Source: Lachnospiraceae bacterium
Lineage (GTDB): Bacteria > Bacillota > Clostridia > Lachnospirales > Lachnospiraceae
Length of the DNA stretch: 63,948 nucleotides
Reading direction: 5' to 3'
Assembly: GCA_017431515.1 (NCBI GenBank)
Contig: JAFRKV010000009.1
Coordinates: forward strand, 1 to 63,948
The first letter of the stretch is position 1, and each line of letters begins with the position of its first letter. Positions 5,610 through 62,886 of the stretch are shown here, in pieces. Made by a program: the position numbers and the translations under genes. The notes under the pieces were generated by a model that worked only from the letters and a program-made list of their open reading frames with translations, was not told where the DNA came from and ran no database searches.

Positions 5610-5850
5610 TGCTGTGGCATTGATAGCGAAGAAGCGTGAGGTTGCTGCCGAGTAGTAGAGCCATACGAAATGGCAGGTTTTCCGTGGAGCGAATGTCAAG
5701 TTAGGAAACTGGCGACAAGTCACTGTGCAAGGTCTACCGCCCGGGAGAGGGCAGGAAAGTAGAAACGACGTGTGAGAACCTTTAGGACACACACGGGGAA
5801 GTGTACAGTCACCGCTTGTCGTACTGAAATAGTAAAGTGCGAAAAGGAGG
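5610..5850 (+). ncRNA. Structured 5' leader of the rpsJ (S10) superoperon
   Basis: About 240 nt of non-coding leader rich in complementary segments. CGACAAG near 5713 pairs with CTTGTCG near 5815 and closes a large domain. Inside it are a GCCC/GGGC hairpin near 5749 and a CGTGTG/CACACG hairpin near 5768-5796, and the 5' part can pair TGCC with GGCA around 5645-5674. The text TTTTCCGTGGAGCGAATG and GTCAAGTTAGGAAA looks like the conserved upstream region of rpsJ in Clostridia, a proposed ribosomal-protein leader. The likely role is feedback control by a ribosomal protein encoded downstream. That role is inference; the pairing is visible. Confidence 0.6.
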
Positions 5851-22099: not shown

Positions 22100-22876
22100 T
22101 TAAAGGGATCCGTTCTTTTCAAGAAAAGCAAGATTCTCAAGATACATCTCCCGGATGACGTTTTGAACGTCGCCCGGGAGTTTTTTTCGTGTTTCGGGAG
22201 TGAGACCGGCGGTCTCAACAGGCGTCCCGTAGCGCAGGACAATGTGGGTACGGTAAAGGATCGGGAGGTGATCTTCAAATACGCTCTTGCTGTAGGTGAT
22301 CGCCATGGGAATGATGGGACACCCGGTTTTTTCAGCCGGCTTAAAGCTCCCGGCATGGAAGGACTGTACGGGTTCCTCTGTTTTATTCCGTGTGCCTTCC
22401 GGATAAATACAGATGGAAATGCCCTGCTTGAGGTACTCGATGGAGGTCAGGATCACCTGCAGACTCTGTTTGAGGTTTTCTCGCTTCATAAAGAGGCAAT
22501 ACAGCCGCTTCATCCAGATGGAGATCACAGGGAGCTTGGCGATGCTTTCTTTTGCGATGTAGCCTGTCGGCGTCGGAACCTGTGCGTAGGAGACGATGAT
22601 ATCGAAGATGCTGCGATGGTTTCCGACATAAAAAACCGGCCGGTCGGTGGGGATGTTCTCGTTTCCGAGGACGGTGATCTTCTGTCCGCCGAGAAACAGG
22701 ACGGTGCGAAAGCCCCATTGGACAAAACGCAGGCTCATGAGGTCACCCTTTTTCTTGTCGGCTTTTCGCACAAAATAGGTAAAGGGGAGCATAAAGAAAC
22801 TGAGAATGCAGAAGAAAACAACATATGAGATAGCAATGATGGTAAAAAACATAGTCACAAGATTCCTTTCCAGCAC
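22100..22876 (-). CDS. plsC: 1-acyl-sn-glycerol-3-phosphate acyltransferase
   Basis: 258-residue membrane-bound enzyme making phosphatidic acid from lysophosphatidic acid. An N-terminal hydrophobic segment (FFTIIAISYVVFFCILSFFM) anchors it. The acyltransferase motifs are NHRSIFD (HxxxxD, about residue 82) and YPEGTRNKTEEP (about 155). It is convergent with the ribosomal superoperon, and its C-terminal codons double as that operon's terminator, which constrains the sequence there. Confidence 0.92.
   Translation of the reverse strand: MLERNLVTMFFTIIAISYVVFFCILSFFMLPFTYFVRKADKKKGDLMSLRFVQWGFRTVLFLGGQKITVLGNENIPTDRPVFYVGNHRSIFDIIVSYAQVPTPTGYIAKESIAKLPVISIWMKRLYCLFMKRENLKQSLQVILTSIEYLKQGISICIYPEGTRNKTEEPVQSFHAGSFKPAEKTGCPIIPMAITYSKSVFEDHLPILYRTHIVLRYGTPVETAGLTPETRKKLPGDVQNVIREMYLENLAFLEKNGSL
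22148..22187 (+). terminator. Terminator of the ribosomal superoperon, inside plsC
   Basis: CTCCCGG-at-GACG, loop TTTTGAA, CGTC-gc-CCGGGAG, then seven T. It is an 11-bp GC-rich intrinsic terminator on the plus strand, lying wholly within the 3' coding part of the convergent plsC gene. Confidence 0.85.
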
Positions 22877-22961
22877 ATTATATCATAGCCCTTCGTGCAG
22901 TTGCAATTGCATAGATGTTGTGGAAAAGAAACAAAGATTTCAAAGATATAGTAGATTTTTC

Positions 22962-52365: not shown

Positions 52366-54207
52366 ATGGCAAACAGTATGGGCAGCCTCTATATCGGGGC
52401 AGAAGGCGTCAGACATCATCAGAATGCAATCAATACAACCGCAAACAACCTGTCCAACTTAGGTTCGGCAGGTTATGTGCGGCAGTCGGTTCTCTTTACG
52501 GATCGGAATTATGTCACGTTTGGACATGCATCGATCAGCGACCAGCAAGCAGGACTTGGTGTGTCGATTGGCGATGTGGTGCACGCACGTGATATTTTTT
52601 TGGATAAATCCTACCGTCAGGAGGGCGGCCGGGAGGCTTTTTACGACAGCTACCATGAGGCCATCGACGAGATCCAGACCTTTTTCCAGGAGATGGAAGG
52701 GACGCAGTATCAGGAAGCGATCAACAACTTCTGGACTGCGATCCAGACGCTTTCCAATTCTCCGGCGGATACCGTCAATCAGAACCTGGTGCTGCAGAAA
52801 GCCAATCTCTTTCTGAGCAGAAACAAAGCCGTGATGAGCGGTCTGGAAAGCTATCAGAATAATATCAATGTGCAGATCGGAAATCAGATCGACCGGGTCA
52901 ATGAGATCGGAAAGCGTCTGGTGGAATTAAATCTGGCGATTCAGAAGATCGAGGCAGGCGGCGTGGAGACCGCCATGACCATGCGGGATGAGCGGGATCT
53001 TCTGCTGGATGAGCTTTCTTCTCTCGGACGAATCGATTATAAAGAAATGCCTGACAATTATGTGAAGGTCAGCTTTGAGGGCATTCCCTTTGTGGGGATG
53101 ACCGATTATCATGAGATGGGAAAGCGCGTGGACAAGACCACAGGCTTTGTGACGCCGTTCTGGCCCTATCTTTCTTCCGGATATGACAAAGAAACCGATA
53201 CCTATCAGGGATATAAGGAGGTCTTCAATTATGATGTGGAGATTTCCTCTGCCCTGAATTCCGATATCGGCTCCTTAAAATCCCTGGTTCTTGCAAGAGG
53301 AGGATTCAAGGCCAATTACAGCGATCTTGACTATGTCAAGCGGGATGAGAAGGGACAGATACTGGAGCAGGATCTCTGGAAAGAGATCGCGCTTTCTGAA
53401 AGCGATACGACGAGCGAGCAGGAGGAGAAAAAACGCATCTACTCCCACGGCATCGGCGCCAGCTGCATGATGAATACCGAAGCGGAGATCGACCGGTTTT
53501 TCCATGAAGTGGTGACGAGGATCAATGATGCCTTCTGCCCCAATACGGATGCAAACTCCATGGGGATCGCCGAAGGAACGGTTCTTTACGATGCGAACGG
53601 GAGACAGGTGGCTGTGGTGGATTCCGGTACGCACTTTCTGGATCAGGGCAACTGCTATGTGGGCTCCGACGGGAAGCTTCCACCTCAGGAGATTTTCGTC
53701 CGGAAGGGATGCGAACGGTATACGGAAGTGAATGACGGCGCGGGACATACGTATTGGCTTTATAATGAGGAAGATCTGACCGATGAGGCCAAAATGTACA
53801 CCACCAACAGCGTCTCCATCAATGAGAAGTTGACGATGCAGCCGTCTCTGCTCCCCGGATATCTCCAGAACGGAGAGGTGGCGCAGCCTCTGCGGGACAA
53901 ACTGGCGGAGATCTGGTCAAGTGATACCATGACGCTCAACCAGCTGGATACGGAGGATTGCACCTTCAAGGAGTTTTATAACAAACTGATCAGCGATCTG
54001 GCCTCCACGGGTTCTGTCTATCAGACCATGGCGACGAGTCTGGCGGGAACGACCCAGTCCATTGATAATCAGCGGCAGCAGGTGATCGGTGTTTCCTCGG
54101 ATGAGGAACTGCAGAGCCTGATCAAGTACCAGAATGCTTATAACGCATCCAGTCGTTTTATGAATGTCATCAGCGAGATGATGGAAACTATCATCAACCG
54201 GCTGTAA
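52366..54207 (+). CDS. flgK: Hook-filament junction protein FlgK, first copy
   Basis: 613 residues. N-terminus MGSLYIGAEGVRHHQNAINT with TANNLSNLGSAGYVR, and C-terminus EELQSLIKYQNAYNASSRFM, are the FlgK end helices that pack into the axial tube. The middle (about 250-450) is a large variable surface domain. It is longer than the usual 450-550 and followed directly by a second FlgK-like gene, so the junction may be a mixed assembly. GGAGTAAA lies upstream. Confidence 0.9.
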   Translation: MANSMGSLYIGAEGVRHHQNAINTTANNLSNLGSAGYVRQSVLFTDRNYVTFGHASISDQQAGLGVSIGDVVHARDIFLDKSYRQEGGREAFYDSYHEAIDEIQTFFQEMEGTQYQEAINNFWTAIQTLSNSPADTVNQNLVLQKANLFLSRNKAVMSGLESYQNNINVQIGNQIDRVNEIGKRLVELNLAIQKIEAGGVETAMTMRDERDLLLDELSSLGRIDYKEMPDNYVKVSFEGIPFVGMTDYHEMGKRVDKTTGFVTPFWPYLSSGYDKETDTYQGYKEVFNYDVEISSALNSDIGSLKSLVLARGGFKANYSDLDYVKRDEKGQILEQDLWKEIALSESDTTSEQEEKKRIYSHGIGASCMMNTEAEIDRFFHEVVTRINDAFCPNTDANSMGIAEGTVLYDANGRQVAVVDSGTHFLDQGNCYVGSDGKLPPQEIFVRKGCERYTEVNDGAGHTYWLYNEEDLTDEAKMYTTNSVSINEKLTMQPSLLPGYLQNGEVAQPLRDKLAEIWSSDTMTLNQLDTEDCTFKEFYNKLISDLASTGSVYQTMATSLAGTTQSIDNQRQQVIGVSSDEELQSLIKYQNAYNASSRFMNVISEMMETIINRL

Positions 54208-54222: not shown

Positions 54223-56145
54223 ATGCCATCTCAATTTTTCGGTCTGACAATCGCGGGAAGCGGCATTAATGCCTATCAGACTTCCATCAATACCACGGCA
54301 AACAATATCGCAAACGTGCAGACGGACGGCTATTCCAGACAGGTGACCAATATGGAGGCCAATAATCCGATGCGCGTCTATGCCAGGTACGGCTCCGCCG
54401 GCACCGGTGTCGTCACCACCTCCATCAAGCAGGTGCGGAATGAGTATTACGACACGAAATACTGGGAAAATCAGAACAGTCTCGGGTTTTATGACAACAA
54501 GCTTTACTATATGACCCAGATTGAGGATTATTTCACGGATGATGACATGACCACAGGCTTTGTGAGCCTGTTGAACGAGTATCAGAGCAATCTGGACAAT
54601 GTGAAGGATGCGGATGGAAGCGAGACCTCCCGGCAGGCTTTCATCAGCAGCGCTCAGAGCCTCGGCACCTTCTTCCACAATGTCAATCAGCAGCTTTCTT
54701 CGCTTCAGTCCAGTATCAATGACCAGATCAAGACGACGGTGGAAAGCATCAATTCCATTGCGGAAAAGATGGCTCTTCTCACGAAACAGATCAATGTCAT
54801 CGAGATCCAGGGAGGATATGCCAATGAATTGAGAGATCAGAGGAATCTTCTGGCGGATCAGCTGAATGAGATCATTCCGGTGGAGATTCAGGAAGCCCCC
54901 ATAAAAAATACGAATGATGAAGAGATCTATCTCGGGGGCACAAGCTATAGAGTAAAGTTCATGGGGATCAATCTGGTGGACAGTTATGATTACCGCACCA
55001 TCGAATGTGTGGCGCGGGAGTATCCCAAGAACCAGAGCGATACCAACGGTCTCTATGACCTCCGCTGGAAGGATACGGGTGTCACCATCAATGCAGCCGG
55101 CGAAGGCATGAGCGGATCGCTGCGGGCGCTGTTTGATATGCGTGACGGCAATAACAACACCAACTTCACGGGGTATCTGACGGAAGCGGTAAAGGGTACG
55201 GACGGTCATGCGGAGGCGGTGTTCGCTGCCGGTGATTTTAATCACGAGATGACTTCTGTCTACAACATGAATATGCCCCAGCACGGCTATATCAACATCA
55301 ACAACGTGGAATATGAATACGACGGCTTCAGCTATGATACCGAGATCGTGGAAAAGTCTCAGGCCGACGGTTCTGTGGTATACGAAGAAGTGGTGACCGG
55401 CTATCGCTTCCATATGGTGGATGCGACCAAGGAAACATTGGATAAGGGAATCGGCAAATACAGCCATATTGGCGAGACCATTGACAACATGGGCGTTCCG
55501 TATTACATGAACCAGATGAACTCCTTCTTACGCTCCTTTACGCAGAAGTTTAACACGATCCAGGAGTCCGGCGTGGATATGGACGGCAATCAGATGGGCG
55601 CGTTCTTTGTGGCGAACAGCAAGGTTGATGGTGTGGAGTATGATTTTAACGCGTATTCCACGGCGTTGAAGGATTACCTCGACAACGGGACGGTTTCCCA
55701 TTCCTATACGATCGGCGGAGGAGATTCTACCTATTATAATCTGACTGCGGAGAATTTTGACATCGCATATGAAAGCGCGCACAATCCGCGGCGCTTCGCA
55801 ACGGCGACCAGCATCATCGACGGCGTGGAGAAGGGCGATCTGGTAGACCGGATGAAGAGGCTGTACGGGGATGTGGAGATCTATCGCGGCTGCAAGGCAA
55901 AGGATTTCCTGCAGTGCATGTATGATGATGTGGCGGTGGATAAGGAAGAGACCAAGACGTTTCTTGACAACTACACCAGTATCCGCGGATCCATTCAGAC
56001 CCAGCGGGACAGTGTATCCGGCGTGGATCAGGATGAAGAGGCGCTGTCGCTCATCAAATTCCAAAATGCATACAATCTCAACTCTAAGGTTATTCAGGTT
56101 TTGACCGAAATATATGATAGATTGATACTGGAAACCGGAGTGTGA
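54223..56145 (+). CDS. flgK: Hook-filament junction protein FlgK, second copy
   Basis: 640 residues. The N-terminus FFGLTIAGSGINAYQTSINT, TANNIANVQTDGYSRQVTNM is closer to canonical FlgK than the first copy; the C-terminus reads DEEALSLIKFQNAYNLNSKV. The middle domain shows little similarity to copy 1 (YVTG-like blocks absent). It starts 15 bases after copy 1, with AGGAGG just before the ATG. Two adjacent flgK genes point to an old duplication with divergence of the exposed domain. Confidence 0.9.
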   Translation: MPSQFFGLTIAGSGINAYQTSINTTANNIANVQTDGYSRQVTNMEANNPMRVYARYGSAGTGVVTTSIKQVRNEYYDTKYWENQNSLGFYDNKLYYMTQIEDYFTDDDMTTGFVSLLNEYQSNLDNVKDADGSETSRQAFISSAQSLGTFFHNVNQQLSSLQSSINDQIKTTVESINSIAEKMALLTKQINVIEIQGGYANELRDQRNLLADQLNEIIPVEIQEAPIKNTNDEEIYLGGTSYRVKFMGINLVDSYDYRTIECVAREYPKNQSDTNGLYDLRWKDTGVTINAAGEGMSGSLRALFDMRDGNNNTNFTGYLTEAVKGTDGHAEAVFAAGDFNHEMTSVYNMNMPQHGYININNVEYEYDGFSYDTEIVEKSQADGSVVYEEVVTGYRFHMVDATKETLDKGIGKYSHIGETIDNMGVPYYMNQMNSFLRSFTQKFNTIQESGVDMDGNQMGAFFVANSKVDGVEYDFNAYSTALKDYLDNGTVSHSYTIGGGDSTYYNLTAENFDIAYESAHNPRRFATATSIIDGVEKGDLVDRMKRLYGDVEIYRGCKAKDFLQCMYDDVAVDKEETKTFLDNYTSIRGSIQTQRDSVSGVDQDEEALSLIKFQNAYNLNSKVIQVLTEIYDRLILETGV

Positions 56146-56154
56146 TGGTTTGCA

Positions 56155-56287
56155 GGAGTCAAAAGTCACATGTCACGAAGTGACATTGTGACCTTTGTGT
56201 GGAGAGGCGTTCTGACACGCTAGCGTGTCGAGACGCCTTCTCACACAAAGTGCACATGCGTGTTCCACGCATGGCACTTTTGACTCC
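56155..56287 (+). repeat. Cloverleaf-like inverted-repeat element A (flgK-flgL gap)
   Basis: 133 bases that can fold into a closed multi-arm shape. Outer stem GGAGTCAAAAGT/ACTTTTGACTCC (12 bp). Left arm CACATGTCAC-gaa-GTGACAT-t-GTG. Central arm CTTTGTGTG...AGGCGT...GACACG-CTAG-CGTGTC...ACGCCT...CACACAAAG. Right arm ATGCGTG-ttc-CACGCAT. No T-run. A related element in opposite orientation is at 62749-62886. It occupies most of the gap and ends about 28 bases before the flgL Shine-Dalgarno. Confidence 0.85.
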
Positions 56288-56329: not shown

Positions 56330-57934
56330 ATGAGAATTACAAATAACGTGATCATGCGCAATACCAAGACGAATATCAATGGCAACAAGATCAACGTGAA
56401 TGAAAAGAATAACCAAATGTCCAGCCAGAAAAAGATTGACCGTCCGTCCGACGATCCGGTAATCGCGGTACGGGCGCTTCGTTTGCGCAGCAACCTGAGC
56501 GAGCTGAAGCAGTACTTAAAGACCAACATCGAGGAGGCGGAGTCCTGGATGAACATCACCGACACCGCTCTTTACAACATGCGCGGGATTATGAATGATA
56601 TGCACACGCTTTGCGATCATGCCGCCAACGACACGTTGAATCAGGATGACCGCAACCAGATCCTGGCGCAGCTCCGCCAGAATCAGGAGCAGATTTTTGC
56701 GGAGGGCAATGCGGATTACGCGGGACGTACCGTATTTACTGGGTGGAAGACCGATACGACCCTGACATTCTCCATGGACAAGGCGAATGAGCATTACACG
56801 ATTACACAGCCTCTTTCCTATGCCGATCTGGAGGAGGAGGCCTACAATTACAACACCGTCAGCAATGAGGATATCATGAATTTCCGGACGAAGGCAGCGA
56901 CGATTTCCCAGTTGACGGAACAGCCTGCCAGCGCCACCTTAAACCGGATTAGACTGGCGTATGACAATCTGAGTCTGGCGGCGGATACCACGACAGATCC
57001 CACGGGGCAGACCCCGATCACGACGCTGGAGATCAAATATGCCCAGGCGGACGGCACGGCTGGGAGCCTGTCCCCCATTGCCTATACGACCACCACCACG
57101 GCGGCGATGGAAGCCGCCGGCTACACCATCGGCGCGAATGACTGCGTATTCAATACAGACACGGGAGAGCTGTATTTCGGGGAAACGCTTTCGGACACAC
57201 TGAAGCAGGAGCAGGCGCAGTTTACCTTTACCTACGACAAGACCGGATTTGAAAAAGGCGATCTGACGCCGGAGAATTACTTCAACTGCACAAACTGGTC
57301 CAAGGGGGATGCTTCCGACTGGGATCGTTACACCTACACCCATTATGAGGGCGGAACCTGGGACGGCACCACCTATACCACCCCCGAATGGATCCATGAG
57401 GACATCAACTACACGGTAGCCACCAACCAGGAGATGGCGATCAATCTCGAAGCAAAAGATGTGCTGGATCAGAACCTTGACCGCGATATTTCCGCACTGG
57501 CGGATATCGTACAGGCATCAATTGATGCGCACAACAAGCTGGACAGACTGACCGCGATGCAGAAACAGGATGCCTATTCATCACCGGAGGATCAGACAAG
57601 GCTGGCGGCCATGATCGAAGCCGTAAGCAAAGAGGTGGATTACGCGGATGACAAGATGCGCGATGTCTTTACCCATTACGTCGGGAAGATGCAGGGCTAT
57701 CTGACCACGATGGATCTCGCGCGGACGGATCTCGGCTCTCTCGGACAGCGGCTGGATCTTACCAAGAACCGTGTGGAAAGCCAGTACACGACCGTGGATA
57801 AGCTGAAAGCGGAAAACGAGGACGAGGATCTGTCGGATATCGTGATCGATTATCAGGCAGCGTACCTTGCTTATCAGGCCTCCCTGCAGGCAGCGGCGAA
57901 GGTGCAGCAGCAGACGCTGTTGGATTACATCTAA
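56330..57934 (+). CDS. flgL: Hook-filament junction protein FlgL
   Basis: 534 residues. The N-terminus MRITNNVIMRNTKTNINGNK and KIDRPSDDPVIAVRALRLRS match flagellin-like FlgL; the C-terminus is RVESQYTTVDKLKAENEDED with a YLAYQASLQAAAKVQQQTLL helix. The central domain (about 150-400), with many Thr/Gly and aromatic blocks, makes it longer than the usual 300-400. ATG chosen by GGAGGG 6 bases upstream and the family start; the frame is open further upstream across element A but that is not coding. Confidence 0.92.
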   Translation: MRITNNVIMRNTKTNINGNKINVNEKNNQMSSQKKIDRPSDDPVIAVRALRLRSNLSELKQYLKTNIEEAESWMNITDTALYNMRGIMNDMHTLCDHAANDTLNQDDRNQILAQLRQNQEQIFAEGNADYAGRTVFTGWKTDTTLTFSMDKANEHYTITQPLSYADLEEEAYNYNTVSNEDIMNFRTKAATISQLTEQPASATLNRIRLAYDNLSLAADTTTDPTGQTPITTLEIKYAQADGTAGSLSPIAYTTTTTAAMEAAGYTIGANDCVFNTDTGELYFGETLSDTLKQEQAQFTFTYDKTGFEKGDLTPENYFNCTNWSKGDASDWDRYTYTHYEGGTWDGTTYTTPEWIHEDINYTVATNQEMAINLEAKDVLDQNLDRDISALADIVQASIDAHNKLDRLTAMQKQDAYSSPEDQTRLAAMIEAVSKEVDYADDKMRDVFTHYVGKMQGYLTTMDLARTDLGSLGQRLDLTKNRVESQYTTVDKLKAENEDEDLSDIVIDYQAAYLAYQASLQAAAKVQQQTLLDYI

Positions 57935-62273: not shown

Positions 62274-62747
62274 GTGAAACAAACATTGAGCCTCCTGGAG
62301 CAGAGCCTCGAAAAGAAGCTTCTGCTCCTGGACGGCATCCTGGAAAAGAGCCGGGATCAGGAAGTCCTGTTAAAGGATGAGGAGCTGGATCCGGATCAGT
62401 TTGAACAAAATGTGGAAGAAAAAGCGGCGTTGGTGGAGCAGCTTATAGAACTGGATGCAGGGTTCGAGCAGGTCTACGCCCGGATCAAAGAGGATCTTCC
62501 GAAGCAGAAAGAGCAGTACCAGGAAGAGATCAAAAAGATCCAGAAGCTGATCTCCGAGATCACAGCCCGCAGCACCTCCATTCAGGCGGAGGAAGCAAGA
62601 AACAAGGACCTTGCCCAGAAGAAGTTTGCAACCGTGAAGAAGCAGATCAAGGAAGCAAAAACCAGCCGGCAGGTCGTGAATCAGTATTATCAAAACATGA
62701 TGAAACTGAACTTTGTCGATCCGCAGTTTATGGATGATAAGCAGTAA
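62274..62747 (+). CDS. FliT/FlgN-like flagellar chaperone (GTG start)
   Basis: 157 residues, almost entirely helical with heptads (SLLEQSLEKKLLLLDGILEK, VEEKAALVEQLIELDAGFEQ, EEIKKIQKLISEITARSTSI). Its position right after fliS suggests FliT, the FliD chaperone; the length and coiled-coil character also fit FlgN-type proteins. The GTG start lies 4 bases after the fliS stop and relies on coupling. Confidence 0.7.
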   Translation: MKQTLSLLEQSLEKKLLLLDGILEKSRDQEVLLKDEELDPDQFEQNVEEKAALVEQLIELDAGFEQVYARIKEDLPKQKEQYQEEIKKIQKLISEITARSTSIQAEEARNKDLAQKKFATVKKQIKEAKTSRQVVNQYYQNMMKLNFVDPQFMDDKQ

Positions 62748-62748
62748 A

Positions 62749-62886
62749 ATTGTTGTCAAAAGTGCCATGCGATGAAATCGCATGCGCACTTTGCACGAAG
62801 ATGTGCCTTGGCGTGCTAGCACGCCAGAGCACATCCTTGTGCAAAGGCCACATGTCACTTCGTGACAAGTGCCTTTTGACAACAAT
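62749..62886 (+). repeat. Cloverleaf-like inverted-repeat element B (upstream of flagellin)
   Basis: 138 bases. Outer stem ATTGTTGTCAAAAG/CTTTTGACAACAAT (14 bp, perfect). Left arm CATGCGAT-gaa-ATCGCATG. Central arm CTTTGCAC...GATGTGC...GGCGTG-CTAG-CACGCC...GCACATC...GTGCAAAG. Right arm CAC-a-TGTCAC-ttc-GTGACA-a-GTG. Read in reverse complement it matches element A arm for arm. It begins 2 bases after the stop codon of the fliT-like gene. Confidence 0.85.

Follow-up and report, generated by a model that had tools for sequence, protein, structure and literature searches.

Copies A and B, two cloverleaf elements in the flagellar locus of the window (the whole 63,948-nucleotide stretch of Lachnospiraceae DNA analysed here), belong to a new family of structured, MITE-like repeats, a variant of the ERIC/BOX/Correia-like kind. 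The family is rather probably non-autonomous, MITE-like mobile DNA in which the complementarity of the arms is maintained largely by template switching. The evidence is good for dispersal of the family, and moderate for a DNA-level mechanism in which copying from arm to arm maintains the pairing.

Folding of both elements returned the cloverleaves drawn in a preliminary description of this DNA, at the same coordinates and with the same outer flanks (Table 1). The outer pairing extends over 56155-56287 in A and 62749-62886 in B. The fold of A has an energy of -81.0 kcal/mol (z -10.4) and that of B an energy of -84.4 kcal/mol (z -10.5), and none of 200 shuffles folded as well in either case. Both have two small arms with 3-nt loops and a central arm, the tip of which is a perfect palindrome with CTAG. 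The flagellar gene context had also been identified correctly: A is flanked on one side by a FlgK-type gene (54223-56145) and on the other by a gene in the FlgL position that has a flagellin domain (56330-57934), and B is found downstream of an FlgN-type gene (62274-62747). Two FlgK-type genes stand side by side in the window (52366-54207 and 54223-56145), and an S10-Clostridia ribosomal protein leader (RF03136, 90 bits) occupies 5621-5718.

Table 1. Coordinates in the window of the two cloverleaf elements, their parts, and a site occupied in a congener
Feature	Position	Strand	Remark
Copy A core cloverleaf	56158..56284	+	Family member by search
Copy A left outer flank GGA	56155..56157	+	Pairs with 56285-56287
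Copy A right outer flank TCC	56285..56287	+	Partner of GGA
Copy A left end and arm 1, loop GAA	56158..56196	+	Parsed
Copy A central arm, CTAG tip	56197..56246	+	Parsed
Copy A arm 3 (loop TTC) and right end	56247..56284	+	Parsed
Copy B core cloverleaf	62755..62880	-	Orientation opposite to A
Copy B outer flank ATTGTT	62749..62754	-	Pairs with 62881-62886
Copy B outer flank AACAAT	62881..62886	-	Partner of ATTGTT
Unfilled site	22871..22890	+	Filled in congener G003 (L112)

The element had been thought to occur in two copies, which was wrong. Covariance-model searches located it in at least 42 places at 77 bits or more in the source genome (G000), or at least 50 with weaker and partial ones included, and in at least 28 places in the congener G003; among the matches listed, G001 had a single one (48 bits) and G002 was without any. 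These counts were made by hand and are lower bounds, 150 candidates having been scored per genome (150 of 794 in G000). When copy A itself was used as a DNA query against the source genome, 40 of 66 candidates were scored and 55 rows of matches resulted. Further copies, for which the preliminary description had proposed a search of other Lachnospiraceae genomes, were also found there. The first covariance model, built from 34 copies, matched in three of 200 genomes of the wider family. A second model was built partly from the finds of the first, sequences from G179 and G059 included, and matched in eight of 397 genomes and six of 334 genera of the Lachnospiraceae sampled; the matches in G179 and G059 are by construction because the model contains their sequences, and both genomes had already matched the first model. 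G360 gave one match to the second model, and the matches in genus g47 were weak (57 bits at best) and of another layout by reading. All of the genomes are drafts, in which repeats may be misassembled.

A match to a named repeat family had been raised as the alternative to a new class of element, and no Rfam family was found at gathering score in the window elements or the loci of five relatives; two microRNA matches were rejected as far below their gathering scores. Searches of phages, plasmids and E. coli genomes gave no match to the family, viral contigs gave none to one exact 37-base pattern, and no published description of the family was found among open-licence papers.

The anatomy of the family was examined in 71 copies and fragments (41 from G000 and 30 from G003), of which 64 were parsed and seven incomplete or odd ones excluded. 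Each copy has a core of about 127 nt that ends near GTCAAAAG/CTTTTGAC and carries three hairpins on one outer stem, in the order arm 1 (loop GAA), central arm, arm 3 (loop TTC). The central arm is about 50 nt long; its stem is variable and contains an internal mismatch of 3 nt, and its tip is usually CTAG. Loops GAA and TTC are each kept in 58 of the 64 copies, and arms 1 and 3 show strong sequence conservation across the aligned copies. As 127 nt amounts to at most 42 codons, the core does not encode a transposase of its own; 37 of the 64 cores are without any stop-free frame and 27 have at least one.

Beyond the core, the outer flanks differ by locus, yet each is complementary to its own partner. 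Among 63 copies, the pairing of flanks with their own partners, as opposed to mixed partners, was.95 against.43,.87 against.35,.83 against.36 and.70 against.28 at positions 1 to 4, and fell to background near position 11. Out to about 21 nt the flanks are also poor in C and follow a weak consensus, ATGATGTTGAG, and the ends GATGTYGGGG are well kept in the copies from genome G243, which suggests that the flanks are largely part of the element. Terminal inverted repeats are present as GTCAAAAG/CTTTTGAC and, further out in G243 and some G000 copies, as GATGTYGRGG.

Several variant forms were also seen. In three copies (L038:3010-3189, L039:3001-3180 and L111:2001-2176) additional hairpin sequence makes the central arm about 50 nt longer, and this sequence stands in opposite orientation in L038 and L039. 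A divergent G000 copy (L242:1554-1704) differs in its arm sequences, has more than 15 pairs in its outer stem and folds at -122 kcal/mol over 220 nt. Single-hairpin forms occur at L035:4150-4220, L245, L246 and L247, and are probably internal-deletion derivatives.

The covariation for which the preliminary description had called proved strong. In the alignment of 34 copies, 97.0% of cells were paired, compared with 86.0% in shuffles; two-sided changes occurred in 30 of 56 pairs (17.8 in shuffles), and the covariation score was 0.335 against 0.122, with none of 500 shuffles as high. These figures are not probabilities, because the copies are related and the alignment itself had supplied the structure. 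Such covariation is what a functional structured RNA or mRNA element, acting in processing, stability or attenuation and spread by duplication, would display if its fold were under selection. The conservation of the loops and the position of the copies are also in keeping with a structured RNA. Copies are mainly intergenic and just past stop codons, often between co-directional genes and inside likely transcripts; where a gene has its 3' end towards a copy, the median distance is 20 nt, with 55 of 71 such ends no more than 35 nt away, and for facing 5' ends it is 44 nt, by gene calls from a crude longest-ORF method. Some sites are also common to two species that share 86% DNA identity over the flagellar stretch.

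A selected RNA fold is nevertheless unlikely to be the main explanation. On the transcribed strand of the 37 copies that stand between co-directional genes there were 118 G.U and 105 A.C mispairs, or 54 G.U and 42 A.C if only isolated mispairs were counted (P=0.26). The best-register tRNA control of 15 acceptor stems gave five G.U and no A.C, a difference from the element with P=0.07; this control is small, and a version with some tRNAs in faulty register gave 13 G.U, seven A.C and 31 others. On the element strand A.C exceeded G.U (109 to 65, P=0.001), for which no explanation is offered. The orientation of copies relative to co-directional genes was mixed (14 the same and 23 opposite), the orientation differed at 10 of 15 shared sites, and there is no Rfam family for the element. 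The absence of a significant G.U excess on the transcribed strand suggests that the covariation may stem from DNA copying between the arms and not from selection on the fold. The earlier proposal that structure, and not sequence, is under selection therefore holds in part: the element is structured and strongly covarying, but arms 1 and 3 and the loops are conserved in sequence as well, and the G.U excess is not significant.

Copying between arms was considered further at the sites that G000 and G003 have in common. In six of 14 ortholog pairs, picked by similarity and with two hairpins of unequal length skipped, there were 19 two-sided changes from one Watson-Crick pair to another and 11 one-sided changes; the ortholog pair of A alone had one two-sided and three one-sided changes. 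The element is inverted at 10 of the 15 common sites. The cores at orthologous sites were more similar than permuted ones (0.837 against 0.801, P=0.002), and with the test confined to inverted pairs P was 0.011 for the core but 0.12 for the central arm. The two species' copies at six of the 14 sites compared (B, L013:6282, L023, L024, L035 and L021) resembled each other no more than random ones do, which implies that replacement or repeated insertion also occurs and that some of the apparent inversions may be separate insertions.

Inversion was also seen within the element. L009 and L013:7659 have central arms that are exact reverse complements of each other, although each of these differs at 10 places from its own reverse complement, and the orientation of arms 1 and 3 is unchanged. 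For 21 of 64 copies, the most similar central arm among the others is a reverse-complemented one, a figure that has no chance control. The GATCCG-type central-arm subfamily has a single constant orientation by reading. A site-specific recombinase that acts at inverted repeats and turns round the whole element or its central arm would produce both this exactly inverted central arm and the inverted orientation at shared sites. It is, however, a most improbable explanation, as the outer stems, which would be its sites, differ at each locus and the two-sided stem changes would be left unaccounted for.

Template switching, in contrast, is described as homogenising arms and inverting spacers (excerpts of PMC8604942), and as able to create and maintain hairpins, with within-strand switching repairing stems and keeping the loop (excerpts of PMC8794818). 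Neither small-arm loop was inverted in any of the 64 copies, which, like the constant orientation of the GATCCG type, weighs against the favoured reading, though it would fit within-strand switching that keeps the loop, as set out in those excerpts (PMC8794818). A tentative and more specific possibility is that the elements are nested inverted repeats, whose arms rewrite each other and sometimes flip at replication, and that strong RNA-type covariation, extending even to the variable outer flanks, would thereby arise without RNA selection. Selection, too, could account for the strong sequence conservation of arms 1 and 3, a point against the favoured reading.

The possibility that the element is a small mobile one was supported by signs of mobility: filled and unfilled sites and a few 7-bp duplications. 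By both flanks, 24 of the 41 G000 entries could be placed in G003, of which 14 were occupied and 10 were without a full element; the comparison covered about 1.29 of 3.0 Mb of G003, where the remaining 17 entries were not represented by both flanks, and the 15th shared site was placed by a match to one flank. Sampling of G003 began with the DNA around its copies, so that filled sites are over-represented and 15 against 10 is no estimate of sharing. The G003 counterpart of one entry (L027) is an element remnant with flanks 99 and 87% identical, attributable to an internal deletion between CATG repeats. Conversely, three G003 copies are missing at the corresponding G000 sites. One of these is the unfilled site in the window (Table 1), where TATCATA (22881-22887) is present singly; at the filled site in G003 it flanks the element on both sides as an exact 7-bp duplication.

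Another idea considered was that terminators or other hairpins already in place serve as insertion targets, the outer stem then being the target's. Two of the 10 unfilled G003 counterparts (L018 and L025) have terminator-like hairpins by reading. No hairpin was seen by reading at the junction in most of the other unfilled sites, however, and the flank consensus, the C shortage and the kept G243 ends mark the flanks as mostly the element's own, making insertion of this kind quite improbable.

In G243, exact 7-bp target duplications were read in three of five complete copies (L261, L267 and L273). Among 66 G000 and G003 copies (the 63 of the flank analysis and three added), exact 7-mer duplications were found in five against 2.5 expected, which is no significant excess, and with one mismatch allowed in 30 against 29.3 expected. 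In G179, the cloverleaf lies inside a unit of about 195 bp with different inverted ends, TTGAGTTTCC, for which there were 58 exact sites and none for a control pattern; duplications of 8-12 bp were read in several of 13 loci. Units of about 60 bp with the same ends as this long unit, and without a cloverleaf, were present at L203 and L216.

No autonomous element with the same ends was seen at 30 of the 58 G179 end sites, and no autonomous partner was seen in 21 G243 loci, where a second pattern (last base not A) missed some sites. Two longer G243 spans, of 543 and 1112 bases, contained no likely transposase by reading; L309 has no ORF of 80 aa or more, and L310 has ordinary-looking enzyme ORFs. 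A Y1 transposase gene was found in two of six genomes, G000 and G003, and was absent from G001 and G002 and from the element carriers G059 and G179. G000 has one (L233, G000:C61:68923-69288), which, by reading, we take to be IS605-like, with ends unlike those of the element. A Y1/RAYT mobiliser was rejected as a candidate: no copy of the element lies within a few hundred bases on either side of the G000 Y1 gene.

In the favoured model of template-switched mobile DNA, the mobile unit would comprise the core and a variable outer arm of about 10-25 nt on each side. It would be moved by a transposase, the better preserved forms having the inverted ends GATGTYGRGG and 7-bp target duplications. Copies that settle past stop codons between co-directional genes could be co-transcribed. 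Strand copying would switch between the inverted arms, homogenising the stems and at times inverting the intervening part, and selection may additionally keep the arm sequence and loops to some degree. The element might affect its neighbours in cis, as a transcript hairpin or attenuator; repeats of comparable kind attenuate or destabilise transcripts, according to excerpts of PMC3049150 and PMC2229807.

The Lachnospiraceae gain an undescribed family of structured mobile repeats. With copies by the dozen, inverted forms among them and sites that two species have in common, it makes RNA selection and copying between DNA arms separable as causes of covariation. If the tentative self-copying reading is true, such palindromes would show by a natural example that covariation does not prove a functional RNA.

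Among known systems, REP/BIME repeats with RAYT have a much shorter unit than the present one, and the sole Y1 gene of G000 is presumably IS605-like by reading; in the excerpted account, REP palindromes occur chiefly past the ends of coding regions, where the adjoining genes are unidirectional or convergent (PMC3733652), a placement like that seen here. BOX, RUP and SPRITE of pneumococcus are likewise tightly folded intergenic repeats with paired ends and inferred mobility, sometimes inserted in or beside operons (PMC3049150, in excerpt). By description BOX is set apart by its host and by its modules, which stand in a row, whereas here three hairpins meet at one junction. The Correia/NEMIS elements of Neisseria are about 107 and 155 bp long with inverted ends, and an RNase III effect on transcripts has been proposed for them (excerpt of PMC2229807); they are also set apart by description, as the central arms here are highly variable and one is inverted. 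Template-switched inverted repeats have arm homogenisation and spacer inversion in common with the present family, but are described in the excerpted sources for yeast genes and RNA genes (PMC8604942, PMC8794818), whereas here switching is proposed for a bacterial repeat family. Copy A was without a match in 20,395 E. coli records in a search for similarity to ERIC. The 127-bp enterobacterial ERIC/IRU/RU-1 elements are nonetheless alike in length, intergenic place, palindromes and the view that they are non-autonomous, and are co-transcribed with their neighbours in published cases (PMC2229807, in excerpt); the family described here differs in having three arms on its outer stem and locus-specific outer flanks.
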